Shown one piece after another: positions 5,060-46,503 of a stretch of 64,000 nucleotides of DNA. This stretch comes from Cristatella mucedo (lineage: Eukaryota; Bryozoa; Phylactolaemata; Cristatellidae). Numbering within the stretch: position 1 is the first letter of the stretch; every line of letters starts with the position of its first letter. The stretch spans positions 205,001 to 269,000 of the forward strand of contig WPIO01000144.1 of NCBI GenBank assembly GCA_009760855.2, in the 5' to 3' direction. Under the pieces are notes generated by a model. It had not been told where the DNA came from, made no database searches, and was given only the letters and a program-made list of their open reading frames with translations. The position numbers were made by a program, and so were the translations under genes.

Positions 5060-5221
5060 CAGCTGATTGAACAGTCTCTTTTGTATAGCGACAGAAGAGC
5101 CTTGACGGCTATCGCCACCGCTTGAAGTGGCAATAAAGGATTGTCCACCTCAGGATTCGAACGCACGACCTCCGGCCGAGGTCGTGAAAAGCAACCGCTT
5201 TACCTAGTGCCATCACGGCTC
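5060..5221 (-). mobile_element. SINE type II (tRNA-derived)
   Basis: Read on the minus strand it starts with a tRNA-like head (GGCACTAGGTAAAGCGG, later GTTCGAATCCTG as a B-box-like block). The family body follows: GGTGGCGATAGCC, CTTCTGTCGCTATACAAAAG and ATCAGCT. The same body recurs at 14.4, 23.3, 32.1, 36.4, 57.2 and 62.8 kb. Confidence 0.8.
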
Positions 5222-12200: not shown

Positions 12201-12391
12201 CACTACATGCTAGACGCTATTCACGACCGTGTGAACCTGAGAGGAAGCAGCTGCTGGCCGCGGTAATCGCAAAAGCGCGGTGAAAATGTGCCCAGGTCGA
12301 CGAGAGCGACATTGTCTGCTAGTTCGACGAGGTCCAGCTTGTCGGAGAGGGCACACTGTAAGATGAAAATCGCGAAGTTGGCTCCGACTGT

Positions 12392-12517
12392 CAGCTCGCA
12401 TTGGGCACGCTGGCGACCGCTCGTTACGTCAGTCAGCTCGCATTGGGCACGCTGGCGACAGCTCGTTACGTCAGTCAGCTCGCATTGGGTACCTGGACGA
12501 CAGCTCGTTACGACGCG
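12392..12517. repeat. 42-bp minisatellite, 3 copies (module A)
   Basis: Units start at 12,392, 12,434 and 12,476. Each begins CAGCTCGCATTGGG and the first two end with CGTTACGTCAGT. The octamer TTACGTCA (TGACGTAA on the minus strand, CRE/ATF-like) lies at 12,424-12,431 and 12,466-12,473; the last unit has TTACGACG instead. As 42 is a multiple of three, ORFs stay open across it on both strands. Confidence 0.95.
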
Positions 12518-13330: not shown

Positions 13331-13336
13331 TTTATT
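13331..13336 (-). terminator. Poly(A) signal AATAAA of Ly6 gene A
   Basis: AATAAA on the minus strand, about 300 bases past the stop codon. The same hexamer in the same context is kept in copies B (22,266-22,271), C (26,759-26,764, plus strand) and D (about 30,948-30,953). Confidence 0.7.
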
Positions 13337-13636: not shown

Positions 13637-15113
13637 CTAGCGGAGCATGGCCGCCGCGACGGCGGAGAGCACCATAGCGACGGTCGAGCGAGCGCCGACG
13701 ACGGCCGAGTTGCACTTGTCACCAGAGCAGAAGCACGTTGTGACCTTGACCCCAGTGCCGCTGAAGATGTCGCCGACGGTGGTGCATCCGGTCGCAATCG
13801 TGAACAGCGAGCACGCCCTGACCGTGACGGTGGTCGTGTCTCCTGAGGTGCGCAAAAGTGAGCGAGGCCGTGACGGCGAGCTAAGCTCCTTTCGACACGG
13901 CGAATGAGCACGCGACAGTCGAGTGCCCCGAAATGCACCAGAAGTGGCAGCTTCCGCCCGCCCTCCCGCCCGCCCGCATAGTGGCCCAGAGAAGCTAGGG
14001 CGGCTGCGGCTGCGGAGGCGGACTCACCGAGCAAGGCCGTGCTTGTGGTCACTTTAGAGCAGACACCGGTGGAGCACGACGCCGACAGCGAGCTCGACGA
14101 AAACGGGTCGGCGCAGTCAGAGCTGACCAGGTCGGTGCACTGGTAGCAGTCTCCGGAGGCTGAAGCGCGGAAGGCGTGGCGCGAGTCGCGGCGGCGAGCG
14201 AGCAAGCAAGTGGGCGTGCGTGAGAGCGACAGCCATGATCGCCGCTGCTAGGATTTCATCATGCAGGCCTCATTGAACGGCCAGGACCGTTTCAAGCCTG
14301 CGAGAGCCCTCAAATCTTGTCTAGGAATAGAGCGATTGGCCCACAAATTGGATAAGAAAACCTCGCTTTCGAATGCAATCCAACTAATCCCTTTCCCTTA
14401 GATGGCGAGCCCTCATGGCACACTAAGCAAGGCGTTTGCTTTCACGACCTTGGTCCCGAGGTCGTGGATTAGATTCCGGCTGTGGGCAATCTGCAAGCGG
14501 TGGTGATAGCCTTCGAGGTTCTTCTGTCGCTATACAAAAGAGGCCGTTTAATCAGCTTGGATTTCTTTTTAGTTTAGCCGCCTGCCGTCATCCACAGCGG
14601 CCCTGTCTCATTGGCTGTTGGACTTTGGACGTCACGTGGCTCGGTAACCAAAGTAGGCGCTAGCGTCCATCGCTGCTGTCGATTCCGACGCGGCCATTTC
14701 TCCCAGCCCCAGAGTAGTCCGCCGCGTTTACGAAATGCCCTGACAACCAATTTCAGTTTCCCTTTGAAGCGCTGAATGAAGTCGGCAGCGTGCCACCTCG
14801 CCGTTCTAACGCTGCTCGCCAGCTGCAGCGGCCAGCCCTTGAGACTAGCATAGAGCCTAGCAGTAACGCTCTGTAAGACGACGGTGGTGCGTGCGACGCA
14901 GCAAGCTAGACCTGCGACGACGTCTGCGTCGCGGGTTCTCGCTCGTCCCTCACTATCGCCGAGTCAATGGCGGCGACGGGGTACTGGCGCTGCCACGCCG
15001 CACAGCCGCCGAGGCCACCTGCGCGAGAGCGTAGCTTTACCTTGCTGGACGGCCAGTGCAAAGGCTAGCAGTAGGGCTAGCCGCGGAGTGGCTGATGCGA
15101 GGACGGTGGCCAT
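13637..15113 (-). CDS. Ly6/three-finger GPI-anchored protein, copy A (3 exons)
   Basis: Predicted secreted, membrane-tethered Ly6/uPAR-domain protein of 136 residues. Exons are 15,113-15,041, 14,159-14,028 and 13,842-13,637. Introns are GT-AG and both interrupt the frame in phase 1; total coding length is 411 bases including stop TAG. Exon 1 encodes a signal peptide (MATVLASATPRLALLLAFAL, residues 1-20, cut likely near 24). The start has a favourable context (AAG before, G after). The mature domain has ten cysteines at 29, 32, 40, 53, 58, 79, 88, 105, 107 and 112. It includes CYQCTD, DCADPF and TTCFCSGDKCNSA, the CxxC start and CxC...CN end of the family. Residues 122-136 are hydrophobic and Ala-rich, a GPI-attachment signal. 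Invertebrate relatives include Quiver- and CD59-like proteins; the ligand is unknown. Intron 1 holds a SINE. Confidence 0.88.
14415..14575 (+). mobile_element. SINE type II in intron 1 of Ly6 A
   Basis: tRNA-like head GGCACACTAAGCAAGGCG, then GGTGGTGATAGCCTTCGAGG, CTATACAAAAGAGG and TTTAATCAGCTT. The same insertion sits at the same place in copies B and D, so it predates the duplication. Confidence 0.85.
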
Positions 15114-15500
15114 CTTGCGTCAGCCGAAGCGCCTAGGCGAGCGGTATTATTGCGAGTGCCGGCCTGAAGCACGGGTGAGCTTACATGAGTGGCGAGAGAC
15201 AGCGAGAGGCCACAGCTGCTGCCTAGCGTTCGTACAATGACCCATTGTACATCAGCGTTGAGTAAACGCCTCGCAACCCTGAAGGTAAAAAGCTACCATA
15301 CAAAAGAAACCATGGCAATTATTCGGATTAAGGTCACAGGAGTGCTTAGGAGAACAACTGGTCGAAATAGCCAATGAATCGAGTAGTCTTCCTACCAGTG
15401 TGAATGTTAGCAGCTTGCCGAAATCAGTTCTGAAAGTTGGAATGGTCGCAAGCATTCCCTTAGCTCAGGTTAAAGCCTGAGTGATTAATTTCGCCTAACA
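15114..15500 (-). promoter_or_regulatory. Probable upstream region of Ly6 A
   Basis: The sequence 5' of the exon 1 start codon is conserved in B and D. CpG-rich DNA spans the exon 1 area. No TATA box stands out at a convincing distance. The promoter role is inferred from position only. Confidence 0.3.
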
Positions 15501-15539
15501 CTTGTGTGCGAAAGATCAGGGCTATACCTCATTATTTGT

Positions 15540-15760
15540 TGAATCATTGAATCCTAATCCAAAAATGCTGATGTCAGCGACTAACCGTTTCCTTAACAGC
15601 TCCCAGGTCAGCTCCTTTCGCAGTGATCCTTGTGACTTTCGAGCCGATCGCTTCGGTAGCTTCTTTGTCAACCAGATCAACAAGATCGGAGAGTCCATCA
15701 CTAAGGTAGTACTAACATCTCTTGAATCCTGCCCCTAAGTTCTTCAAAATGTAATATTAT
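15540..15760 (+). mobile_element. LINE linker/RT-start fragment (module A)
   Basis: The frame reads MSATNRFLNSSQVSSFRSD, then an FGSFFVNQINKIGESITKVV block ending at TAA. This resembles the FAxFFxxKIxxIR segment found between endonuclease and RT in CR1/L2-like ORF2 proteins. It is repeated at 24.5 and 33.3 kb. It is a fragment, not a gene. Confidence 0.65.
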
Positions 15761-17859
15761 TTTCATTATCATTGCTTTTCTTATGCCTGACATCGGAGCT
15801 AAGGCTTTGAGATTTTTGTTTCGAGTTTTTAGATTTTAGATTTAGATTTCGTATTTAAGCTTTTGATTCTTGACCTGGGTGGGTAACAAAGCAAATATTG
15901 CAGAGTTGATCCTAAGGCAGTGCTACAAACGCGCTGCATCTGCTGCTGAGCTGCTGTTCTCGAGCCACAAACAGCTCTATGGGAACACTGTCTGTCCTTG
16001 CTGGCAAGTGAAAGATACACGTGACGTCTTTTGACCTCGTTTCGGAGCTTCGCAAATGTAAATTCGGTATCAAAGCACTCACGAACACTTAGATTGAGGA
16101 GAAATAGAGGCAGCAATTCAGAACACGCTTGCCTCGACGTAGAAATGAAATTGTCAGGACCATTGAACTATACACCGGTACACTACCCATAGAGAAACTC
16201 CCTGCTTGGCTGGAATGCTAGGGTACAACTTATTACATCCCTCATTACATGTCCGGAGGGCAACTGACGACTTATTGCTCAGTATGCTGCCTTACTATAG
16301 ACGAATAGATCGAGCTCAAAAAAATCGGTATAACTAATTCGAATGCTTCGAGAGAACATGTGTTTGTGAAAGTTCTTAGCTGGCGGCTGAGCTTGGCGCA
16401 GCGTGACGTGGGCAGCGTTCTCCTCTCCTTGAAATCATACCTGGCCGATGCATACGAGTTTGACAGGGCAAGCTACGTCGCCTCTTACCCGGTCACTCCA
16501 TTTACCGCCACCACGAAAACATCCCTCAGCCTCACAGAACCCGTCGCCGGCAGCTTTGGTTATGGTGCCACCGTCGTTGCCTGGCACATCGTCTGCCATT
16601 GCTGTTGCAGCTTCTGATTGCTTCCGTCGCCCTCCCCTGCTGTCCGTCCATCTTGTACCATCCCCACACACCACAGCCGCACTCTATCATCCGGGCTAGC
16701 TAGTTCGGCTAGCAAAGCCTCACGAAGCAGCATGGAGTCATCGTTGGTGGGCGGTGCCATGAAATAGTAGACCCACCAGGAGCCGTCGCTAGCCGATCCG
16801 ATTCGCTCTCTTCCAGCATTGTATATACTCTGTCTGTTACCTCCACTGTGGCATGTATTTCTGACATGTTCAAATGGATGGCAGCAAACCTTTGAAGTGT
16901 AATGGAGCTAAGACTCACTAACTGGGGTCAAACCGAAAGCTATTTCCTAATAGGAAACTCTAACCTTCAAACTAGCTGGGCTCAGCACATCTCTTGCAGC
17001 CTGTGTGCAGAGTCTGTGTGTCCACTTCAAACATAACTTTTCAATGCATATGTGAACATCAACTCAACATTATAAAGCTGACTTATTTTAACCAAGACCA
17101 TACTGATAAAAAGAATTTCTTGTTCGGATTATAACTGTGCAGCCATGTTGATCATTAAAATCACGTTGAAACTTCTGTAACCCACTAATTTCTGAGCTTC
17201 TTTCCTGCAAAATAAGACAATTTAACAAAAAACTCTGCAACTAGGCTTTTCTGACTCGAGCATCGGAACTAAAGCATCGCATAGATTCTCCAGACCTGCA
17301 CTTCATTCCACCGAACAGTTCATATTATTCAAGATTGCTTCGCTAATCTGTGCGTCCCTCTATTTTCTTCCTTTGGCAGATATATCCAAAGTGCTTACAC
17401 ACCAGTATTGCGAGTGCAGCACAATCTCTGCCTCGAGCACCGCTGCACCCTTATTGCCTCGAGCACTGCTGCACCCTTGAGTGCCTCAAGAACCGCTGGA
17501 GCACCTGCCAGCAAACGAAAAGTGCCTTCGGCGCATCTCCTGCCTGGGCCCGGGCGCCCCGTAGCAACTGACTGCCTGTTGCACGAATTCTGCTTATATG
17601 CCGCCAATCCCCCGTATGATTAGGCAACTAGTTCCTGCTCATTACAATTCATTATCCGTGACTCTTATTTCAGCAGTTGTAATGAAGCAGGTGTAGAACA
17701 TCAATGGTCCTGTACAGCCGAAGAGAGCTATCCCAGAGGCATTAAGCAGAACTGCCTATCCATCGCTTCAGGTGACCTCTATCTGTGGACTGAGAGGTCG
17801 CATATTATGGCTCTCGTCGCTTGGTTGTGAAGATTTTCAAATTCCCTTTAGAATGGTCC
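15761..17859. other. Module A sequence without recognised gene
   Basis: Conserved in B, D and partly C because of the duplication. Frames at 16,360-16,760 shift between copies, so they are not under coding constraint. Near 17,420-17,480 an imperfect CGAGCAC(C/T)GCTGCACCCTT duplication is visible. D keeps about 210 bases of RT (34.49-34.70 kb) missing at 17,055, and lacks about 330 bases seen at 15,830-16,150. Confidence 0.5.
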
Positions 17860-20800
17860 GTCGACATATATTCCCCCGAAGCCCGTAAATCGCTATCAAG
17901 CAATGTAACGTCAGAGACACTGGAACGGGTCGTGGCAGACCTGCTGAACTCATATATCGAAACCTCACACCTGGTTAGTAATTTCCAGTCTGGCTTTCTT
18001 CGAGCTAATCACTCCACAGAGTCAGCATTGCTTAGGGTATACAACGACCTACTTAGGAATGCAGACATGGCTAGAGTGTCTCTACAGTTGTACAGCCTCT
18101 TTTCAAACATATCCTGATTTGAAGCAAAGCTTTCAAGTCTTCACAACAAGTAAGTAGAAATTAAGGTTGTTTGTGCATGATTGTGGATCTCAGCATGGTA
18201 TCGTATTATCATTATCTAGCTTGGGATGAATAACTGAGGATCTGTATCTGTGATTTATGCATGAAATAGGTTTGTTGGCCAATCTATTTGATTATCAGCC
18301 CTAACACAGATATAATGGAAAGTATAGAGTGCTGGCTGGTTGGTATATAACGGTTTTTGTAAAGGTCATTAGCAAAGGGTTGGCTTGTTGGGCTAGGCCA
18401 TGCAAAATGTGCTCTGAATAAGTTTTCTCTATGACATTCTTCCATTTGGCAATGCTTTTTACCACTCATGTTTAATTAACTAATGATTGGTGAGATTGCT
18501 TAGTACTTAAGCTAAATGCTGCTACATCTTGACAACGTATACTGACCTTAAAGTAGAAATGAGTCATCATCTTAGCTAGGCCGATGTGAAGCTAATTTGC
18601 TCAATGGATAACTTGAGTAATTTTGTTAAGCTTTATTCAGTCATCATGCCCAGGTCACGGTGCCTTTATGAAGTCAAACAGGTCATTTTCGGTCTGCTTA
18701 GAGAATAATATAGCATTGAAACTGGTGCATGCATCCGTGGCATCCCTACTGGACCTGTGGAAATCTCTACTTCCGGGTCTTCCTGCCTCCGCAAAATTAA
18801 GTTTCCAGTGTTATGCAACTGTGCAGCTGGGCTTGTCTTTTGTAAAAGTTGCAACTTCAATATTACAACCACTTCACAAAGATCTTTAACGGCTCCCCTT
18901 GATTTCAATACTCGCCTTGAGGTCTAGTAGTTCTCTTGCTCTCAGCGATCTATGGAAACTACTTTTCTTATCGGGTTAGGCATTCCGACTTAACTTGTTA
19001 GCTGTGCCTCGAATCAACATCAAATCCTTTGGCGACAGAGAATCCATTTTCGAAACTCCCAAAGCCCGGAACTTACAACCAACTGCCCTAACACACTAAC
19101 ATTTAGAAGGTCGCTCACTTTTAGGTCTCTTCATTCTATGGCTCCAGCCTATCTTTCAGATATACTACCCCATCAGGCTAAGCATCGTACCACCCGCTTC
19201 TCGGAATCCAACAGTCTGGAAATACCTCATACGAACCTTAAATCCTTTGGAGACCGTGCATTTAGCTCGTATGCTCCCAAAGCCTGGAACTCCCTCCCGA
19301 CCTGCGTCAGAACATCCCATGACCTGACCACATTTAAAAGAAACTTAAAAACACCTATTTAGGACAGCATTTAGTGGGTCCCTGTGATTCGTCCTTGATG
19401 TGCTTATGCGTGCTAACACTGTGCATGCTGCCACTAACCACATTTGCATGCTGACCCTGTACATGTCACACCTTGCCATATTATTCATTTCGTTTGTTTT
19501 TCAAGCATGATTTTACTTACTATTCTATTGCATATCACTTTGCAGCAAATGTAAAGCGCCTAGAAAGAGATTAGGTTCTCTGAGGGCACTTTATCAAGTG
19601 CAATATTATTATTATTATTGTTATTACTTGTTTTGATTGATCTTTCGGTGGCCTTTGATACCATCGATCACAGAGTTCTTCTGGAGAGCCTCTCATCTTG
19701 CCTGGGCATCACTGGCACTGATCTGCAATCGTTCAGGTCCTATCTCAGTGGCAGAATCCATAGTATCGACGTGAACGGACAAAGATCATCTGAAGTACCT
19801 CTGAAATATGGAGTACCTCAGGGCTCCGTGCTAAGTCCGGTTCTTTTCATGGTTCATACTCTCCCTCTTGCTGATATGAATGCAAACACAATCTAGACTT
19901 TCACTTCTATTCGGATGACACTCAGTTGTACCTTGACTATGATCCCTCCCAGCCTTCGAGCACCTCAAATTCTTTCAACTCACTTGCTGCATGCATAGAT
20001 GACATCGGCACATGGATGGTAGCAAATTTTCTAAAACTAAGCGATGATAAAACTAACGTACTAGTTATGGGCAAACCCAATGTGATTCATAAATTGGAAA
20101 GGCTGACGCTCAAAATTGGCTCTGCCAGCATATCTCCTGTTGAATTAGCTCGGAATCTAGGCGTCATATTCCAAAGCGACCTCTTGTTAGATGACCATAT
20201 CAGCTCCACAGTCAAATCTGCCTATTTTCATCATCATAACATTGCTAAAATTTAGGCTTGTTTAGATAAGGATACCACGTCCAAATTGGTCCATGCATTC
20301 GTGATATCCCGTCTCAACTTCTGCAACTCACTGCTTACTGGCCTACCAGCATGTGCAATCAAGCGATTGCAGCCTGTGCAAAACTCAGTAGCTAGGCTTG
20401 TCTGTCGTGAGCGCAGCAGTTGCCACATCACACCACTTCTCGCCGACCTGCACTGGCTACCAGTCAAGCAACGGATCGACTTCAAGGTTTTCTCGCTCAC
20501 TTTTTGGTCACTTCATTCTTTGGCTCCAGCCTATCTCACAGATCTACTACCCCACCAGGTCATGCATCGTACCACCCGCTTTTCGGAATCCAGCAGTTTA
20601 CCAATACCTCCTACAAACCTCAAATCCTTTGGAGACCGTTCATTTAGTTTGCATGCTTCCAAAGCCTGGAAATTCCTCCCGACCTGCATCAGAACATCCC
20701 CTGACTTGACAGCATTTAAAAAGAACTTGAAAACACAGCTATTAGAACAGCATTTAGTGGATCCCTGTGATTCGCCTTTAACGTGCTTATGCGTGCTGAC

Positions 20801-20995
20801 ACTGCATGCTGCCACTAACCACATTTGCATGCTGACCCTGTGCATGTCACCCCTAACCATGTTATTCAAGTTGTTTGTTTATCAAGCATGATATTACTCA
20901 CCATTCACTCGCATTTCCATTTGCAGCAAATGTAAAGCACCTAGCAAGAGATTGAGTTCTTCGAAGGCGCTTTATCAAGTGCATTACTATTAATA
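17860..20995 (+). mobile_element. LINE family 1 copy, interrupted by a nested LINE
   Basis: Spans the RT palm to the 3' tail. Blocks: ETLERVVADLLNSYIE, SNFQSGF, then after the 18,086-19,616 insertion [44 protein letters not shown] (catalytic DD; Ser in place of the Ala seen at 63.6 kb), LARNLGVIFQSD and HWLPVKQRIDFKV. It is dead: a one-base deletion near 19,875 leads to a stop at 19,894, and another stop TAG lies at 20,253. A copy with the same lesions lies inverted at 28,020-29,655. The tail near 20,960-20,995 is GCGCTTTATCAAGTGCATTA plus degenerate ATT. Confidence 0.9.
18086..19616 (+). mobile_element. Nested insertion ending in a LINE family 1 3' end
   Basis: Interrupts the RT frame between MARVSL and VLIDLSVAFD. 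Arm C gives the empty site. The last 500 bases (about 19,110-19,616) are a 5'-truncated family 1 end: MAPAYLSDILPHQAKHRTTR, NLKSFGDRAFS, CAGCAAATGTAAAGCGCC, hairpin and an (ATT)n tail. At most a 2-3 base target duplication (TAC) is seen. The first kilobase (18,100-19,100) is unrecognised. Confidence 0.75.
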
Positions 20996-21009
20996 CTATT
21001 AAATACATA

Positions 21010-21470
21010 TAATATACACCGTATGAGTTTATCCAGTGTGCAACGACTGGTTCCAGTATCTTTGATTGCAATGGTAGAAGAGAAAGTGGGCGGAAGTTGC
21101 TCAAGCTCTTTTGACCTAGTGTTGCTTTCTTGAGTAGTAGCCTGACTACGGCCTTTCTGAGAGGTTGCTGGGACACGACCTGGGGCTAAAGGCCTATGAA
21201 TGATGCTAGTTTTGCGTGGCAGCACCAGATTAGTGCATTTTAGAAGCAGGACAGTGGGAATAGGGTTCAAAGAACGTGTCGTCTTTTTGTATTCGGATTT
21301 GAACTTTATGATGAAGTCACTATTGACCTCCTTGAATGTAAACTTTGAGGTGCTGCAAGGAATTGAGGGACGGAATTCCTGAGGTTTTAATTTCGGTTTA
21401 CTGAACTCAAATCCAACGTCATCCACAGTCTCTGGCGCAGTCTCACTTTTGACGACGACCAATCGCAAAC
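21010..21470 (-). mobile_element. LINE family 1 RT N-terminal fragment (module B)
   Basis: Near-identical to 11,755-12,200: KFTFKEVNSD, SEYKKTT, LNPIPTVLLLKCTN, and in another frame KKATLGQKSLSNFRPLSLL. It is broken by a frameshift between these blocks. Confidence 0.8.
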
Positions 21471-21660
21471 GCTACATGCTAGACGCTATTCACGACCGTG
21501 TGAACCTGAGAGGAAGCAGCTGCTGGCCGCGGTAATCGCAAAAGCGCGGTGAAAATGTGGCCAGGTCGACGAGAGCGACATTGTCTGCTAGTTCGACGAG
21601 GTCCAGCTTGTCGGAGAGGGCACACTGTAAGATGAAAATCGCGAAGTTGGCTCTGACTGT

Positions 21661-21785
21661 CAGCTCGCATTGGGCACGCTGGCGACCGCTCGTTACGTCA
21701 GTCAGCTCGCATTGGGCACGCTGGCGACCGCTCGTTACGTCAGTCAGCTCGCATTGGGCACGCTGGCGACCACTCGTTACGACGC
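21661..21785. repeat. 42-bp minisatellite, 3 copies (module B)
   Basis: Units start at 21,661, 21,703 and 21,745. TTACGTCA lies at 21,693-21,700 and 21,735-21,742. Confidence 0.95.
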
Positions 21786-22265
21786 GGCAGGAAATGCACG
21801 CGGAAAGATCGAGAAAATCGAAAGATTTCGTGTTCAGTCTCGTGGTGAGTCCGCCACGCGATCGAGCTGCAATGTTAAGAGTCGCGAAAGGATTAGGCAC
21901 GGGTCAAGGGTCGCCGAGGAACGAGCGAGACAGAGACCGTTTGCAGTGGCTGCGGCGAATGACGTTGCACTGCGGGTCGGCACGTTGAGATTTCACAAGG
22001 CAACAAGTGACGCCGGTAACTGTGAACTGTTCGACGCCATTGTTGGCGGTCGCTGCAGCGCTACGGTCGTTGGACTCTGACGCGACTCGCATTCAATGCG
22101 CACCTGCAGAGACGCAAAACACCGACGTCCTTCTAATCGTGTCGTCCCTTCGAGAGCCAACGTGTAACTGCGGCGAATGACGTGGGCGAACTGGCCCTTC
22201 AGCTGACTGCCGCGGCGTCGATTGCACGAGCCCGCCTCATCGACACGGACAACGCTCGCAGGCTG

Positions 22266-22271
22266 TTTATT
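22266..22271 (-). terminator. Poly(A) signal AATAAA of Ly6 gene B
   Basis: Minus-strand AATAAA about 295 bases past the stop codon, in the same context as in copy A. A short GA tract (22,381-22,398) lies between stop and signal. Confidence 0.7.
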
Positions 22272-22564
22272 TAACTTTTTCAGCGGCGAAGTGCTTGCCG
22301 ACAGAATGCCGTGCGAGATGAGCGGAGATTCGCGAAGGTGTCAGTTCGGCAGCGGGTGCTCGTTGCATTTGGCGGCGTCAAAAGAGAGAGAGAGAGAAGG
22401 AGTGAGATAGAGCCATTCGTGTGAATACATTTCGGCGTCAGTGAGAGTAAGCACACAAGAGAGCGAACCCGTGCTTCTGCAGCCGAGCCTAGCCGCTGTT
22501 CCGCGACCCGAAGACTCTCGGGACCGCTGGGGAACCTCCGGCGGCAGCGGCGACGCGAGCTCCT

Positions 22565-24043
22565 CTAGCGGAGCATTGCTGCTGCCGCCGCGACGGCGGA
22601 CAGCACCAGAGCGGCGGTCGATCGAGCGCCGACGACGGCCGAGTTGCACTTGTCCCCGGAGCAAAAGCACGTGGTGATTTTGATTCCGTTGCCGCTGCTG
22701 ATGTCGCCGACGGTGGTGCAATTGGTTGCCACCGAAATCGGCGAGCACAACCTGGCCGTGACGGTGGTCGTGCTTCCTGAGGCGCAGGAAAGCGAGCGAG
22801 GCCGTGACATCGAGCTACACCCCTTTCGACGTGGTGAATGAGCGCGCGACAGACGAGTGCCCTGAAATGCGCCGGAAGTGGCGACTCGCTCCCGCCCGCC
22901 CTGATAGCAGCCCAAAGAAGCGGCGGCGGCGGCGGCTGCGGAGGCGTACTCACCGAGCAAGGCCGTGCTTGTGGAAACTTTAGAGCAAATCCCGGAAGGA
23001 CATGACGTCGACAGCGAGCTCGACGAAAACGGCTCGCCGCAGCCACTGGTCACGCTGGTGCACGCGTAGCAGTCTCCGGCGGCTGCTAAGCGGAAGACGT
23101 GGCGCGAGTCGCGTCGGCGAGCGAATCGCGGCGGCGAACGAGCGAGCGAGCGACAGCCTTGATTGACGCTGCTTGCTAGGATTTCATCATTCGCGCCTCC
23201 TTGAACGGCCACGGCCGTTTCAAGCCTGCGAGAGCCCTCAAATCTCGTCTAGCAATGGAACAATTGGCCCACGAATTTGATAAGAAAACCTCGTTTTCGA
23301 ATGAAATCCAACTAATCCCTTTCCCTTAGGTGGCGAACCGCCATGGCACACTGAGCAAGGCGGTTGCTTTTACGAAGTTGGTCCCGAGGTCATGGGTTAG
23401 ATTCCGGATGTGGGCAATCTGCAAGCGGTGGTGATAGCCTTCGAGGTTCTCCTGTCGCTATACAAAAGAGGCCGTTTAATTAGCTTGGATTTTCTTTTTA
23501 GTTTAGCCGTCTGCCATCATCCGCAGCGGCCCTATCTCATTGGCTGTCGGACTTGGACGTCACGTGGCTTGGTAACCAAAGTAGGCGCTAGCGTCCATCG
23601 CTGCTGTCGATTCCGACGCGGCCATTTCTCCCAGCCCCCAGCCCCAGAGTAGCCCGCCGCGTTTATGAAACGCGCTGACAACCAATTTCAGTTTCCCTTT
23701 GGAGCGCTGAATGCAGTCGACAGCGCGCCGCCTCGCCGCACTAAGCTCGCAGCTGCAGTGGCGAGCCCTTGAGCCTAGCGTAGAGCCTAGCAGTAACGCT
23801 CGATAAGACGACGGCATTGCCTGCGACGCAGCAAGCTAGACCTGCGACGACGTCTGCGTCGCCGGCTCTCGCTCGTTCCTCACTATCGACGAGTCAATGG
23901 CGGCGACGGGGTACTGGCGCTGCCACGCCGCACAGCCGCCGAGGCCACCTGCGCGAGAGCGTAGCTTTACCTTGCTGGACGGCCAGTGCAAAGGCTAGCA
24001 GTAGGGCTAGCCGCGGAGTGGCTGATGCGAGGACGGTGGCCAT
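22565..24043 (-). CDS. Ly6/three-finger GPI-anchored protein, copy B (3 exons)
   Basis: Paralogue of copy A, 137 residues. Exons are 24,043-23,971, 23,082-22,954 and 22,776-22,565. Both introns are GT-AG and phase 1; coding length is 414 bases. The signal-peptide exon is identical to A. The mature domain keeps ten cysteines (29, 32, 39, 52, 57, 78, 87, 104, 106, 111) but differs at many loop positions: CYACTSVTSGCGEPF against CYQCTDLVSSDCADPF, and RLCSPISVATNC against RACSLFTIATGC. The end TTCFCSGDKCNSAVVGARS and the Ala-rich GPI tail are kept, with two extra Ala. Intron 2 is 177 bases, a multiple of three and free of stops, so its retention would add 59 residues in frame. Confidence 0.88.
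23339..23492 (+). mobile_element. SINE type II in intron 1 of Ly6 B
   Basis: Same insertion as in copy A, about 8% different by eye over 160 bases. Confidence 0.85.
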
Positions 24044-24479
24044 CTTGCGTCAGCCGAAGTGCCTAGGCGAGCGGTAACGTTGCGAGTGCCGGCCTGAAGC
24101 ACGGGCGAGCTTATTTGAGTGGTGACTACCGCGAGAGGCCACATCTGCTGCCTAGCAATCGTGCAATGACCCATTATACGTCAGTGTTGCGTAAACGCCT
24201 CGCTAGCGTAAAGGTAAACAGCTACGTTCAAAAGAAACCATGGCAATTATTCAGACAATGGTCTTGGCAGTGCTAAGGAGAACAATTGGTTTACAGAACT
24301 AATGAATCGATTCGTTTTCCTACCAGTTTAAATGCTAGCAGCTTGCCGAAACCAGGATTGAAAGTTACAAGGGACGCAAGCGTTCACTTAGCTCGGGCGG
24401 AATCGTGAGCGATCGATTTCGCCTGACACTTTTTTGCGAACGCTCAGGGCTATACCTCATTTATTGTTGAATCACTGAT

Positions 24480-24700
24480 GCCCAATCCAAAAATTAGTGA
24501 TGTCCACGACTAACCGATTCCTTAACAGCTCCCAGGTCAGCTCCTTTCGCAGTGATCCTTGTGACTTTCGAGCCGATCGCTTCGGTAGCTTCTTTGTCAT
24601 CCAGATCAACAAGATCGGAGAGTCCATCACTAAGGTAGTACTAACATCTCTTGAATCCTGCCCCTAAGTTCTTCAAAATGTAATATTATTTTCATTATCA
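24480..24700 (+). mobile_element. LINE linker/RT-start fragment (module B)
   Basis: Matches 15,540-15,760, with an indel near 24,495 and FGSFFVIQINKIGESITKVV. A dead fragment. Confidence 0.6.
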
Positions 24701-26090
24701 TTGCTTATATTATGCCTGACATCGGAGTGAGGGCTTTAAGATTTTTGTTTCGAGTTTTTAGATATTAGATTTAGATTTCGTATTTAAGCTTTTGATTCAT
24801 GACCTGGGTGGGTAACAAAGCAAATATTGCAGAGTTGATCCTAAGGCAGTGCTACAAACGCGCTGCATCTGCTGCTGAGCTGCTGTTCTCGAGCCACAAA
24901 CAGCTCTATGGGAACACTGTCTGTCCTTGCTGGCAAGTGAAAGATACACGTGACGTCTTTTGACCTCGTTTCGGAGCTTCGCAAATGTAAATTCGGTACC
25001 AAAGCACTCACGAACACTAAGGTTGAGGAGAAATAGAGGCAGCAATTCAGAAAACGCTTGCCTCGACGTAGAAATGAAATTGTCAGGACCATTGAACTAT
25101 ACACCGGTACACTACCCATAGAGAAACTCCCTGCTTGGCTGGAATGCTAGGGTACAACTTATTACATCCCTCATTACATGTCCGTAGCGCAACTGACGAC
25201 TTATTGCTCGGTATGCTGCCTTACTAAAGACGAATAGATCGAGCTCAAAAAAATCGGTATAACTAATTCGAATGCTTCGAGAGAACATGTGTTTGTGAAA
25301 GTTCTTAGCTGGCGGCTGAGCTTGGCGCAGCGTGAGGTCGGCAGCGTTCTCCTCTCCTTTAAATCGTGCCTGGCCGATGCATACGAGGTTGACAGGGCAA
25401 GCTACGTCGCCTCTTACTGGATACCGCCACCACGGAAGCGTCCCTCCGCCTCACAGCACTCACCCGTCGCAGGCCGCTTTGGCTATAATACCACCGTGTC
25501 GCCTGACACATCGTCTGCCATTGCTGATGCCGCTTCTGATCGCTTCCGTCGCCCCCCCCCCCTGCTGTCCGTCCATCTTGTACCGTCCACACACACCACA
25601 GCCACACTCTATCATCCGGGCTAGCTACTTCGGCTAACAAAGCCTCACGAAGCAGCATAGAGTCATCGTTGGTGGGCGGTGCCATGAAATAGTAGACCCA
25701 CCAGGAGCCGTCGCTAGCCGATCCGATTCGCTCTCTTCCAGCATTGTATACACTCTTTCTGTTACCTCTATTGTGGCATGTATTTCTGACATGTTCAAAT
25801 GGATGGCAGCAAACCTTTGAAGTGGAATGGAGCTAAGACTCACTAACTGGGGTCAAACCGAAAGCTATTTCCTAATAGGAAACTCTAACCTTCAAACTAG
25901 CTGGGCTCAGACAGCACATCTCTTGCAGCCTGTGTGCGGAGGCCTTGTGTCCATTTCAAACATAACTTTTCAATTCATATTTAAACATCAACTCAACATT
26001 GTAAAACTGACCGCTTTTCAATGACAAAACTGATAAAAATATTTCTTGTTCAGATTATAACTGTGCAGCCATATTGATCATTGACATAAC
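24701..26090. other. Module B sequence without recognised gene
   Basis: Parallel to 15,761-17,160 in module A. A C run near 25,553 is polymorphic between copies. Frames differ from those of A, so no coding constraint is evident. Confidence 0.5.
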
Positions 26091-26199
26091 GTTTCCACTT
26101 CCGCCGCATTTCGGGGCACTCGTCTGTCGCGCGCTCATTCGCCATGTAGAAAGCAGTTTATCTCGATGCCATGGCCTCGCTCGCTTTCGTGCGCCTCAG

Positions 26200-26411
26200 C
26201 AAGCACGACCACCCTCACGGTCAGGGCGTGCTCGCCGATTTCGGTGGCGACGAATTGCACCACCGTCGGCGACATCAGCAGCGGCAATGGAATCAAAGTC
26301 ACCACGTGCTTCTGCTCCGGCGACAAGTGCAACTCGGCCGTCGTCGGCGCTCGATCGACCGCCGCTCTGGTGCTGTCCGCCGTCGCGGCGGCAGCAGCAA
26401 TGCTCCACTAG
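26200..26411 (+). pseudogene. Ly6 copy C, last exon only
   Basis: A complete exon 3 (212 bases) on the plus strand with its AG acceptor at 26,198-26,199, all five exon 3 cysteines, TTCFCSGDKCNSAVVGARS, the Ala-rich tail and stop TAG. The upstream intron is cut at about 26,092, where module B sequence begins, so exons 1 and 2 are absent. A long CT tract (26,560-26,647) and AATAAA (26,759-26,764) follow. It could be used only if spliced from another first exon. Confidence 0.8.
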
Positions 26412-26553
26412 AGGAGCTCGTGCCGCCGCTGCCGACGGAGCGTCCCGAGAGTGTTCGGGTCGCGGAACAGCAGCTCGGCTCGGCTGCAGAAGCACGGGTT
26501 CGCTCTCTTGTGTGCTTGCTCGCGCTGACGCCGAAATGTATTCGCTCGAAGGG

Positions 26554-26559
<6 letters not shown>

Positions 26560-26632
<73 letters not shown>

Positions 26633-26647
26633 TCTCTCTCTCTCTCT
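26560..26647. repeat. (CT)n tract in the Ly6 C 3' UTR
   Basis: An almost pure CT run of about 88 bases, the longest pure form of the tract shared by the four Ly6 copies. Ser-Leu and Arg-Glu ORFs over it are artefacts. Confidence 0.95.
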
Positions 26648-27243
26648 TTTGACGCCGCCAAATGCAACGAGCACTCGCTGCCGAACTGACACCTTCGCGA
26701 ATCTCCGCTCACCTCGCACGGCATTCTGTCGGCAAGCACTTCGCCGCTGAAAAAGTTAAATAAACAGCCTGCGAGCGTTGTCCGTGTCGATGAGGCGGGC
26801 TCGTGCAATCGACGCCGCGGCAGTCAGCTGAAGGGCCAGTTCGCCCGCGTCATTCGCCGCAGTTACACGTCGGCTCTCGAAGAGACGACACGATTAGAAG
26901 GACGTCGGTGTATTGCGTCTCTGCAGGTGCGCATTGAATGCGAGTCGCGTCAGAGTCCAACGACCGTAGCGCTGCAGCGACGGCCAACAATGGCGTCGAA
27001 CAATTCACAGTTACCGGCGTCACTTGTTGCCTTTTGAAATCTCAACGTGCCGACCCGCAGTGCAACGTCATTCGCCGCAGCCACTGCAAGCGGTCTCTGT
27101 CTCGCTCGTTCCTCGGCGACCCTCGACCCGTGCCTAATCCTTTCGCGACTCTTAACATTGCAGCTCGATCGCGTGGCGAACTCACCACGAGACTGAACAC
27201 GAACTCGTACGATTTTCTCGATCTTTCCGCGTGCATTTCCTGC

Positions 27244-27371
27244 CGCGTCGTAACGAGCTGTCGTCCAGCGTGCCCAATGCGAGCTGACTGACGTAACGAG
27301 CTGTCGTCCAGCGTGCCCAATGCGAGCTGACTGACGTAACGAGCGGTCGCCAGCGTGCCCAATGCGAGCTG
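27244..27371. repeat. 42/43-bp minisatellite, 3 copies (arm C)
   Basis: Inverse orientation relative to A, B and D. One unit is 43 bases because of an extra T (TCGTCCAGCG in place of TCGCCAGCG). Confidence 0.9.
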
Positions 27372-27559
27372 ACAGTCGGAGCCAACTTCGCGATTTTCAT
27401 CTTACAGTGTGCCCTCTCCGGCAAGCTGGACCTCGTCGAACTAGCAGACAATGTCGCTCTCGTCGACCTGGGCACATTTTCACCGCGCTTTTGCGATTAC
27501 CGCGACCAGCAGCTGCTTCCTCTCAGGTTCACACGGTCGTGAATAGCGTCTAGCCTGTA

Positions 27560-28015
27560 GCGTTTGCGATTGGTCGTCGTCAAAAGTGAGACTGCGCCAG
27601 AGACTGTGGACGACGTCGGATTTGAGTTCAGTAAACCGAAATTAAACCCTCAGGAATTCCGTCCCTCAATTCCTTGCAGCACCTCAAAGTTTACATTCAA
27701 GGAGGTCAATAGTGACTTCATCATAAAGTTCAAATCCGAATACAAAAAGACGACACGTTCTTTGAACCCTATTCCCACTGTCCTGCTTCTAAAATGCACT
27801 AATCTGCTGCTGCCACGCAAAAACTAACATCATTCATAGGCCGTTAGCCCCAGGTCGTGTCCCAGCAACCTCTCAGAAAGGCCGTAGTCAGGCTACTACT
27901 CAAGAAAGCAACACTAGGTCAAAAGAGCTTGAGCAACTTCCGCCCACTTTCTCTTCTACCATTGCAATCAAAGATACTGGAACCAGTCGTTGCACACTGG
28001 ATAAACTCATACGGT
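27560..28015 (+). mobile_element. LINE family 1 RT N-terminal fragment (arm C)
   Basis: Inverted counterpart of 21,010-21,470. Blocks KFTFKEVNSD, LNPIPTVLLLKCTN and, in another frame, KKATLGQKSLSNFRPLSLL. Confidence 0.8.
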
Positions 28016-28019
28016 GTAT

Positions 28020-29655
28020 ATATGTATTTAATAGTATTAATAGTAATGCACTTGATAAAGCGCCTTCGAAGAACTCAATCTCTTGCTAGGTGCTTTACAT
28101 TTGCTGCAAATGGAAATGCGAGTGAATGGTGAGTAATATCATGCTTGATAAACAAACAACTTGAATAACATGGTTAGGGGTGACATGCACAGGGTCAGCA
28201 TGCAAATGTGGTTAGTGGCAGCATGCAGTGTCAGCACGCATAAGCACGTTAAAGGCGAATCACAGGGATCCACTAAATGCTGTTCTAATAGCTGTGTTTT
28301 CAAGTTCTTTTTAAATGCTGTCAAGTCAGGGGATGTTCTGATGCAGGTCGGGAGGAATTTCCAGGCTTTGGAAGCATGCAAACTAAATGAACGGTCTCCA
28401 AAGGATTTGAGGTTTGTAGGAGGTATTGGTAAACTGCTGGATTCCGAAAAGCGGGTGGTACGATGCATGACCTGGTGGGGTAGTAGATCTGTGAGATAGG
28501 CTGGAGCCAAAGAATGAAGTGACCAAAAAGTGAGCGAGAAAACCTTGAAGTCGATCCGTTGCTTGACTGGTAGCCAGTGCAGGTCGGCGAGAAGTGGTGT
28601 GATGTGGCAACTGCTGCGCTCACGACAGACAAGCCTAGCTACTGAGTTTTGCACAGGCTGCAATCGCTTGATTGCACATGCTGGTAGGCCAGTAAGCAGT
28701 GAGTTGCAGAAGTTGAGACGGGATATCACGAATGCATGGACCAATTTGGACGTGGTATCCTTATCTAAACAAGCCTAAATTTTAGCAATGTTATGATGAT
28801 GAAAATAGGCAGATTTGACTGTGGAGCTGATATGGTCATCTAACAAGAGGTCGCTTTGGAATATGACGCCTAGATTCCGAGCTAATTCAACAGGAGATAT
28901 GCTGGCAGAGCCAATTTTGAGCGTCAGCCTTTCCAATTTATGAATCACATTGGGTTTGCCCATAACTAGTACGTTAGTTTTATCATCGCTTAGTTTTAGA
29001 AAATTTTCTGCCATCCATGAGCCGATGTCATCTATGCATGCAGCAAGTGAGTTGAGTGAATTTGAGGTGCTCGAAGGCTGGGAGGGATCATAGTCAAGGT
29101 ACAACTGAGTGTCATCCGAATAGAAGTGAAAGTCTAGATTGTGTTTGCATTCATATCAGCAAGAGGGAGAGTATGAACCATGAAAAGAACCGGACTTAGC
29201 ACGGAGCCCTGAGGTACTCCATATTTCAGAGGTACTTCAGATGATCTTTGTCCGTTCACGTCGATACTATGGATTCTGCCACTGAGATAGGACCTGAACG
29301 ATTGCAGAGCAGTGCCAGTGATGCCCAGGCGAGATGAGAGGCTCTCCAGAAGAACTCTGTAATCGATGGTATCAAAGGCTGCCGAAAGATCATTCAAAAC
29401 AAGTAGAGACACTCTAGCCATGTCTGCATTCCTAAGTAGGTCGTTGTATACCCTAAGCAATGCTGACTCTGTGGAGTGATTAGCTCGAAGAAAGCCAGAC
29501 TGGAAATTACTAACAAGGTGTGAGGTTTCGATATATGAGTTCAGCAGGTCTGCCACGACCCGTTCCAGTGTCTCTGACGTTACATTGCTTGATAGTGATT
29601 TACGGGTTCGGGGAGAATATTTGTCGACGGACCTTTCTAAAGGGAATTTGAAAAT
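28020..29655 (-). mobile_element. LINE family 1 copy, uninterrupted (arm C)
   Basis: Inverted counterpart of the LINE at 17.86-20.995 kb without the nested insert. The frame 29,667-29,134 runs unbroken from ETLERVVADLLNSYIE through VLNDLSAAFDTIDYRVLLES to [14 protein letters not shown]. It carries the same one-base deletion after ADMNA and the same TAG before ACLDKD as the A-side copy, so the pair arose by DNA duplication and not by two insertions. Confidence 0.9.
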
Positions 29656-30297
29656 CTTCACAACCAAGCGACGAGAGCCATAATATACGACCTCTCAGAC
29701 CACAGATAGAGGTCACCTGAAGCGATGGAGAGGCAGTTCTGCGTAATGCCTCTGGGATAGCTCTCTTCGGCTGTACTGGACCATTGATGTTCTACACCTG
29801 CTTTATTGCAACTGCTGAAATAGGAGTCACGGATTATGAATTTTAATGAGCAGGAACTGGTTGCCTAATCATACGGGGATTGGCGGCATACAAGCAGAAT
29901 TCGTGCAACAGGCAGTCAGTTGTTAAGGGGCGCCCGGGCCCAGGCAGGAGATGCGCCGAAGGCAGTTTTCGTTTGCTGGCAGGTGCTCGAGCGGTGCTCG
30001 AGGCAATAAGGGTGCAGCGGTGCTCGAGGCAGAAATTATGCTGCACCCGCAATACTGCTGTGTGAGCACTTTGGATAAATCTGCCAAAGGAAGAAAATAG
30101 AGGGACGCACAGATTAGCGAAGCAATCTTGAATTATATGAAAATGTGCCTAATGGTAATCACAAAAAGGTAATCGCAAAAGCGCGGTGAAAATGTGCCCA
30201 GGTCGACGAGAGCGACATTGTCTGCTAGTTCGACGAAGTCCAGCTTGCCGGAGAGGGCACACTGTAAGATGAAAATCGCGAAGTTGGCTCCGACTGT

Positions 30298-30466
30298 CAG
30301 CTCGCATTGGGCACGCTGGCGACCGCTCGTTACGTCAGTCAGCTCGCATTGGGCACGCTGGCGACCGCTCGTTACGTCAGTCAGCTCGCATTGGGCACGC
30401 TGGCGACCGCTCGTTACGTCAGTCAGCTCGCATTGGGCACGCTGGACGACAGCTCGTTACGACGCG
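30298..30466. repeat. 42-bp minisatellite, 4 copies (module D)
   Basis: Units start at 30,298, 30,340, 30,382 and 30,424. TTACGTCA lies at 30,330, 30,372 and 30,414. It has one more unit than A or B. Confidence 0.95.
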
Positions 30467-31052
30467 GCAGGAAATGCACGCGGAAAGATCGAGAAAATCG
30501 TACGAGTTCGTGTTCAGTCTCGTGGTGAGTCCGCCACGCGATCGAGCTGCAATGTTAAGAGTCGCGAAAGGATTAGGCACGGGTCAAGGGTCGCGGAGGA
30601 ACGAGCGAGACAGAGACCGCTTGCAGTGGCTGCGGCGAATGACGTTGCACTGCGGGTCGGCACTTTGAGATTTCAAAAGGCAACAAGTGACACCGGTAAC
30701 TGTGAACTGTTCGACGCCATTGTTGGCCGTCGCTGCAGCGCTACGGTCGTTGGACTCTGACGCGACTCGCATTCAATGCGCACCTGCAGAGACGCAATAC
30801 ACCGACGTCCTTCTAATCGTGTCGTCTCTTCGAGAGCCGACGTGTAACGGCGGCGAATGACGCGGGCGAACTGGCCCTTCAGCTGACTGCCGCGGCGTCG
30901 ATTGCACGAGCCCGCCTCATCGACACGGACAACGCTCGCAGGCTGTTTATTTAACTTTTTCAGTGGCGAAGTGCTTGCCGACGAAATGTTGTGCGAGGTG
31001 AGCGCAGGCGCCATCTCAGCAGCGGGTGTTCGTTGCAATTGGCGGCGTCAAA

Positions 31053-31111
31053 AGATAGAGAGAGAGGGAGACACAGAGAGGGACAGAGAGAGACGGAGAG
31101 AGAGAGAGAGT

Positions 31112-31143
<32 letters not shown>

Positions 31144-31170
31144 AAGAGAACGAGAGAGAGAAAGAGAGAG
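31053..31170. repeat. Impure (GA)n in the Ly6 D 3' UTR
   Basis: GA repeats with ACA interruptions, at the same position as the tracts of the other copies. Confidence 0.9.
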
Positions 31171-31322
31171 TCCTACGTGCGAATACATTTTGGCGTCAGC
31201 GCGAGCAAGCACACAAGAGAGCGAACCCGTGCTTCTTCGGCCTAGCCGAGCCGCTGTCCCACGACCCGAAGACTCTCGGGACCGCTCGGGACGCTCCATC
31301 GGCAGCGGTGGCACGAGCTCCT

Positions 31323-32847
31323 CTAGCGGAGCGTCGCTGCTGCCGCCGTGACGGCGGACAGCACCAGAGCGGCTGCCGAGCGAGCGCTGATGGTGGTCGA
31401 GCGAGCGCTGACGACGGTCGATCGAGCGCCGACGACGGCCGAGTTGCACTTGTCGCCGGAGCAGAAGCACGTGGTGACTTTGATTCCGTTGCCGCTGCTA
31501 ATGTCGCCGACGGTGGTGCAATTGGTTGCCACCGAAATCGGCGAGCACGCCCTGACCGTGAGGATGGTCGTGCTTCCTGAGGCGCACGAAAGCGAGCGAG
31601 GCCGTGACATCGAGCTACACCCCTTTCGACGTGGCGAATGAGCGCGCGACAGACGAGTGCCCTGAAATGCGCCGGAAGTGGCGACTCGCTCCCGCTCGCA
31701 AGGATAGCGGCCCAAAGAAGCTACGGCGGCGGCGGCTGCGGAGGCGTACTCACCGAGCAAGGCCGTGCTTGTAACCACTGTAGAGCAGACACCGGAAGGA
31801 CATGACGTCGACAGCGAGCTCGACGAAAACGGCTCGCCGCAGCCACTGGTCACGCTGGTGCACGCGTAGCAGTCTCCGGCGGCTGCTAAGCGGAAGACGT
31901 GGCGCGAGTCGCGTCGGCGAGCGAATCGCGGCGGCGAACGAGCAAGCGAGCGACAGCCTTGATTGACGATGCTTACTAGGATTTCATCATGCGCGCCTCG
32001 TTGAACGGCCAGGGTCGTTTCAAGCCTGCGAGAGCCCTCAAATCTCGTCTAGCAATGGAACAATTGGCCCACGAATTTGATAAGAAAACCTCGCTGTCGG
32101 ATGCAATCCAACTAATCCCTTTCCCTTAGATGGCGAACCGCCATGGCACACTCAGCAAGACAGTTGCTTTTACAAAGTCGGTCCGAGGTCGTGAGTTAAA
32201 TTCCGGCTGTGGGCAATCTGAAAGCGGTGGTGATAGCCTTCGAGGTTCTTCTGCCGCTATACAAAAGAGGCCGTTTAATCAGCTTGGATTTCTTTTTAGT
32301 TTAGCCGCCTGCCATCATCCGCAGCGGCCCTGTCTCATTGGTTGTTTGACTTGGACGTCATGTGGCTTGGTAACCAAAGTAGGCGCTAGCGTCCATCGCT
32401 GCTGTCGATTCCGACACGGCCATTTCTCCCAGCCCCCAGCCCCAGAGTAGCCCGCCGCGTTTACGAAACGCCCTGACAACCAATTTCAGTTTCCCTTTGG
32501 AGAGCTGAATGAAGTCGGCAGCGCGCCGCCTCGCCGTACTAGCGCTGCTCGCCAGCTGCAGCGGCCAGCCCTTGAGCCTAGCGTAGAGCCTAGCAGTAAC
32601 GCTCGGTAAGACGACGATGGTGCGTGCGACGCAGCAAGCTACACCTGCGACGACGTCTGCGTCGCGGGTTCTCGCTCGTCCCTCACTATCGCCGAGTCAA
32701 TGGCGGCGACGGGGTACTGGCGCTGCCACGCCGCACAGCCGCCGAGGCCACCTGTGCGAGAGCGTAGCTTTACCCCTGCTGGACGGCCAGTGCAAAGGCT
32801 AGCAGTAGGGCTAGCCGCGGAGTGGCTGATGCGAGGACGGTGGCCAT
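31323..32847 (-). pseudogene. Ly6/three-finger protein, copy D (frameshifted)
   Basis: Three exons are visible: 32,847-32,774, 31,882-31,754 and 31,576-31,323. Exon 1 encodes the same signal peptide as A and B, but one extra base at the donor (CAGCAGGG before GTAAAG instead of CAGCAAG) makes it 74 bases. The first intron is then phase 2 while exon 2 needs phase 1. The shifted frame runs through exon 2 and stops early in exon 3. Exons 2 and 3 themselves are intact, with ten cysteines. Exon 3 has a 14-codon insertion after GARS, in which RST-type units repeat before the Ala-rich tail. Intron 2 is 177 bases and open in frame. It is probably a recent pseudogene, unless another donor is used. Confidence 0.75.
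32138..32292 (+). mobile_element. SINE type II in intron 1 of Ly6 D
   Basis: Same insertion as in copies A and B (GGTGGTGATAGCCTTCGAGG, CTATACAAAAGAGG, TTTAATCAGCTT). Confidence 0.85.
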
Positions 32848-36215: not shown

Positions 36216-36439
36216 ATTTTTTAAGTAAAGTGCCTGCCAAGTGATGCCACTGCATTACTTTTATTTTTCCTTGTTATTTTTCAGCAGTTCAGCTTCTCGA
36301 CGGCCCTTTGACCTCTTAAGAACTTCAAAAGATTGTTACTCGTGACACTTTACCCATAACAAAGGCAGCCACTATATTACCACACTTCCGCCGCTTGGAA
36401 ACGGCCAGATCAGACACCAAAGTATACCTATGAGCATGA

Positions 36440-36605
36440 TGGCACACTAGGTAAGGCGGTTGATTTCACGATCTCGTTCCCAAGGTTTTGGGTTCGTTTC
36501 CTGCGGTGGGCGATCCTTTATCGCCACAGCAAGAACTGGTGAAAGCCGCGAAGTCTCTTCTGTCGCTATACAAAATGAGGTTGTTTAATCAGCTAGGACA
36601 TAATT
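36440..36605 (+). mobile_element. SINE type II
   Basis: Head GGCACACTAGGTAAGGCGG, GGGTTCGTTTCCTGCGGTGG (B-box-like), CTTCTGTCGCTATACAAAAT and TTTAATCAGCTA. Confidence 0.8.

Positions 36606-37499: not shown

Positions 37500-46503
<9,004 letters not shown>

Follow-up and report, generated by a model that had tools for sequence, protein, structure and literature searches.

Copies and gene models

The locus raises the question of whether its repeated, cysteine-rich coding pieces are split genes or debris, and what kind of protein they would encode. Two of the copies (A and B) are very probably ordinary three-exon genes for small secreted proteins that carry a single Quiver-type Ly6/uPAR (LU) domain, duplicated locally together with flanking retroelement sequence. 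The window, i.e. the whole stretch of DNA that was analysed, measures 64 kb and lies on a 985-kb contig; the genome totals 572 Mb. All four places named in the original prediction were located as given. Two of these four copies appear intact (A and B), whereas D is frame-shifted and C consists of exon 3. The copies and their parts are as follows:

13637-15113, minus strand: copy A, three-exon model with splice sites and frames
15041..15113, minus strand: A exon 1, start codon and predicted signal peptide, phase 1 end with GTAAAG donor
14028..14159, minus strand: A exon 2, domain cysteines 1-5, phase 1 at both ends
13637..13842, minus strand: A exon 3, cysteines 6-10 (TTCFCSGDKCN), hydrophobic C-terminal tail and stop
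13331..13336, minus strand: AATAAA of A, 301 nt past the stop
22565-24043, minus strand: copy B, three-exon model with splice sites and frames
23971..24043, minus strand: B exon 1, same sequence as in A
22954..23082, minus strand: B exon 2, from the splice model and profile match
22565..22776, minus strand: B exon 3, from the splice model and profile match
22266..22271, minus strand: AATAAA of B, 294 nt past the stop
26200-26411, plus strand: copy C, exon 3 only
26759..26764, plus strand: AATAAA of C, 348 nt past the stop
32847-31323, minus strand: copy D, the same three exons, frame-shifted
32774..32847, minus strand: D exon 1, one extra base ahead of the donor
31754..31882, minus strand: D exon 2, from the splice model
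31323..31576, minus strand: D exon 3, in-frame 42-nt insertion ahead of the tail
30946..30951, minus strand: AATAAA of D, 372 nt past the stop

For both A and B, the exact GT-AG structures of the original prediction were reproduced: each gene has two introns (2/2 GT-AG), both in phase 1, and the joined exons give open frames of 411 nt (136 amino acids) in A and 414 nt (137 amino acids) in B. Correct three-exon genes can thus be assembled from raw sequence by a reader working without tools. When A, B and D were aligned, the gaps in exons 2 and 3 were 3, 6 and 42 nt long, all multiples of three, and single-base gaps also occurred in the introns and flanks. A chance origin of the A and B models was rejected because of the profile match described below, the exon phases kept in the relatives and the three-fold exon gaps.

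In copy D, the additional base ahead of the exon 1 donor throws canonical splicing out of frame and into an early stop, and this copy is probably a pseudogene. Copy C is probably a fragment: when the genome was searched in six frames with protein A, exon 3 was the one exon matched at that place. In all four copies the stop is followed, at a distance of 294-372 nt, by an AATAAA hexamer (strand background 0.61 per kb); these four occurrences were treated as a single observation because the copies are duplicates.

Protein features and family membership

As predicted, the A and B proteins have a hydrophobic, signal peptide-like start, a ten-cysteine domain and a hydrophobic tail. The cysteine spacings (ten cysteines in each protein) are 2, 7 (6), 12, 4, 20, 8, 16, 1 and 4, followed by N, so that the series closes in CFCSGDKCN, and the tail after CN counts 23 residues in A and 25 in B. 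In vertebrate Ly6 proteins the eighth and ninth cysteines are adjacent, whereas one residue separates them in A and B. The ten domain cysteines all align among A, B and the paralogue E, a relative outside the window. In the part of A and B encoded by exon 1, 11 residues form a hydrophobic stretch (mean hydropathy 3.02), and the C-terminal tails peak at 2.41 (A), 2.36 (B) and 2.19 (E); judged by hydropathy, both ends of these three proteins fit a signal peptide and a GPI anchor.

The profile search supported the predicted kinship with the Ly6/uPAR/Quiver proteins. Against Pfam QVR (PF17064, Quiver/Sleepless u-PAR/Ly-6-like domain; curated cut-off 27.3 bits), spliced A scored 37.0 bits (E = 7.3e-9) and spliced B 32.4 bits (E = 1.9e-7), with matches that span positions 2-86 of the 86 in the profile, i.e. 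the whole profile; the hydrophobic start and tail flank this ten-cysteine domain. With UPAR_LY6 (Pfam), A (24.3 bits) and B (16.5 bits) fell below the cut-off of 24.8, and a PDB sequence search with A at E up to 10 returned no match, and hence no solved relative.

LU genes typically have three exons, phase-1 introns of which one is placed at the loop 2 tip, a GPI signal in exon 3 and an arrangement in local clusters (PMC6600238). A and B share the three exons, the phase-1 introns, the exon 3 tail and the clustering; their second intron likewise falls at loop 2, between cysteines 5 and 6. From the plan as outlined there, A and B show no departure, while copy D as it stands does depart from it. 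Membership of A and B in the LU superfamily, Quiver type, is supported at the level of sequence because both exceed the curated QVR cut-off and follow the canonical gene plan.

The second intron also bears on how far the genes were hidden from single-frame ORF calling, as had been claimed. This holds in part: in B and D a single open frame runs from exon 2 through intron 2 (177 nt in each, free of stops when read in frame with the exons) into exon 3, so these two copies are only partly hidden. The same open frame would allow intron 2 of B and D to remain unspliced and to encode a 59-residue linker in single-frame proteins with a split domain. Such an arrangement is highly improbable, since intron 2 of A measures 185 nt and is not a multiple of three, the QVR score of B is 24.6 bits when intron 2 is read through and rises to 32.4 on splicing, and in the relatives E, F, G, H and I a splice is possible at the corresponding position of the domain. 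Structure prediction of the unspliced read-through frame of B gave a pLDDT of 29.4, too low to be informative about the fold.

Relatives elsewhere in the genome

The six-frame genome search with protein A (E up to 10) gave 20 matches: 10 in the cluster, 2 in relative E and 8 weaker ones. Relative E, on contig C659, is intact, and its exon 3 was found at 64% identity. Across the protein search 22 candidates were scored, and at least two places (the cluster and C659) have an exon 3 at about 60% or more. Seven outside loci (L021-L027, relatives E to K) were read, the two weakest places (C660:464905 and C430) being left out.

All three exons of E are present and in phase 1 throughout, with a GC-AG intron 1; its donor, GCATGT (L021 5884-5879), appears to be of the GC kind. 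A phase-1 exon 2 (AG before, GT after) joined to exon 3 was verified in E, F, G, H and I, and in K a phase-1 exon 2 fits with either of two donors. At locus J exon 3 was found and no exon 2. Exon 2 therefore fits phase 1 in 6 of the 6 outside loci that have it (seven read). When the spliced relatives E to I were scanned with QVR (K and J were left out), four of the five (F, G, H, I) lay above the cut-off, and E reached 26.5 bits, just short of 27.3.

A genome search with QVR (E up to 10) gave at least 50 exon-sized matches on at least 21 contigs, most of them weak; 5 of the 50 matches listed were marked above the cut-off, and among those listed four or more each lay on C111, C145, C44, C659 and C49. 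The exons of the window scored 17.7-18.4 bits unspliced in this search, and the control was detected in 0 of 14 genomes, the counts being lower bounds. The corresponding UPAR_LY6 search returned nothing at E up to 0.001, a null result that is uninformative because its control was likewise detected in 0 of 14 genomes. The cluster adds a local group to an LU gene set that seems to be sizeable in this animal. Spread across the genome as a transposon-borne gene was not favoured: the close copies found by the protein search, whose count is a lower bound, lie in the cluster and at one place on C659.

Divergence among the copies

Pairwise differences between the copies, measured over about 2.4 kb, are 13.1% (A-B), 12.8% (A-D) and 7.3% (B-D), and to call the family young, as the original prediction did, is fair for the cluster itself (7.3-13.1%). 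The differences of A from B and D are patchy along the sequence. A run of 170 bases that is identical in A and B covers exon 1 with flanking sequence, against at most 90 in 1000 shuffles, and the longest identical run between A and D is 123 bases, against a shuffle maximum of 80; for B and D the longest run (158) is within the shuffle range (maximum 161). Either conversion between the copies or constraint on the stretch would explain the long A-B and A-D identities.

For the LU domain, pairwise dN/dS over about 90 codons of this GC-rich gene was 0.60 (A-B), 1.19 (A-E) and 0.88 (B-E). In the signal exon the differences of E from A and B were mostly silent (0.19), and the silent and nonsilent changes in the tail numbered 5 and 2 (A-B), 2 and 6 (A-E) and 4 and 4 (B-E). 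On these estimates the values show weak constraint on the domain and not proven positive selection. Positive selection was not claimed despite the A-E value, because silent change may be damped in a GC-rich gene and because the A-B domain dN (0.18) is close to the raw divergence of intron 2 (17.5%).

It is quite unlikely that all four copies are decaying pseudogenes, with the ancestral LU gene elsewhere (e.g. E on C659) and its debris placed here by local duplication and retroelements. The frame shift of D, the fragment C and the reverse-transcriptase sequence among the copies would suit such decay, as would the domain, in which amino-acid change nearly matches the silent pace (A-E), and the A-E and B-E tail counts; A and B nevertheless retain open frames, splice sites, ten cysteines, three-fold gaps and a polyadenylation signal, and their tails differ from each other mostly by silent changes. 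There is a small chance that the cluster represents a fast-diversifying family of surface-recognition proteins, in which conversion would keep the signal exon and flanks identical while the domain, its disulfide frame preserved, would change at roughly the silent rate, in the manner of reproductive or immune three-finger families. Should selection be shown to drive diversification of the domain, the cluster would offer a small natural test case for three-finger specificity.

Anchorage and comparison with known proteins

With A and B taken as ordinary LU genes, the signal peptide would send the chain into the secretory pathway, five disulfides would fold it as a three-finger domain and, to judge from the tail, the short hydrophobic segment after CN would be swapped for a GPI anchor. 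The fingers may then engage another protein on the cell surface; by analogy with known LU proteins, this partner would most likely be a receptor or channel.

The products could instead be released into a secretion, where they would act as soluble ligands of the three-finger kind: the tail is short and Ala-rich, that of relative I continues into a polar end (apart from A, B and E, tails were assessed only by eye), and LU proteins are known in both forms (PMC6600238). This is unlikely, since the hydrophobic stretch after CN in A, B and E would be unneeded in a soluble protein.

Drosophila Quiver/Sleepless uses its loop 2 to bind Shaker channels and nicotinic receptors (PMC4735452); that function is known for the Drosophila protein only, and for A and B every step beyond the sequence is a prediction. 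The CD59-like three-finger proteins of Schistosoma (PMC3812095) have ten conserved cysteines, in common with A and B, and potential GPI sites. Their cysteines 2 and 3, and 4 and 5, are two residues apart, whereas 7 or 6 residues, and 4, lie between them in A and B. The cluster is an ordinary find of low surprise, i.e. further members of a type of cell-surface protein that is common in animals.

Flanking repeats and neighbouring sequence

The stretch with copy C (26095-26583) matches 22383-22881 of B in inverted orientation at 90.0%, and the adjoining 26620-29405 matches 19625-22412, also inverted, at 98.2%. A reverse-transcriptase sequence (PF00078, 29134-29694) lies beside or in this 98.2% inverted duplication. 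Upstream of exon 1, the stretch at 15589-15777 has nearly the same sequence in A and B, with runs of 106 and 82 bases, and D largely shares it (a run of 123); it may be a retroelement piece.

Two further repeats accompany the copies. A short dispersed repeat lies within intron 1 of A, B and D (14403-14571, 23344-23498 and 32144-32298) and recurs near 5061-5221 and 36437-36598; loci L023 and L025 contain it as well. Past the 3' end of each copy from A to D there is a tandem repeat with a unit of 42-43 bp, present 2.9 to 3.9 times:

12390-12512, 21659-21781, 27249-27373 and 30296-30461: 42-43-bp tandem repeat, open in several frames

At 37500-38930 on the minus strand there is an Ala-rich open frame of 476 residues, in which a Pfam scan at E up to 0.1 found nothing; a hydrophobic stretch was seen in it by eye, and the frame is perhaps an exon of a membrane protein.
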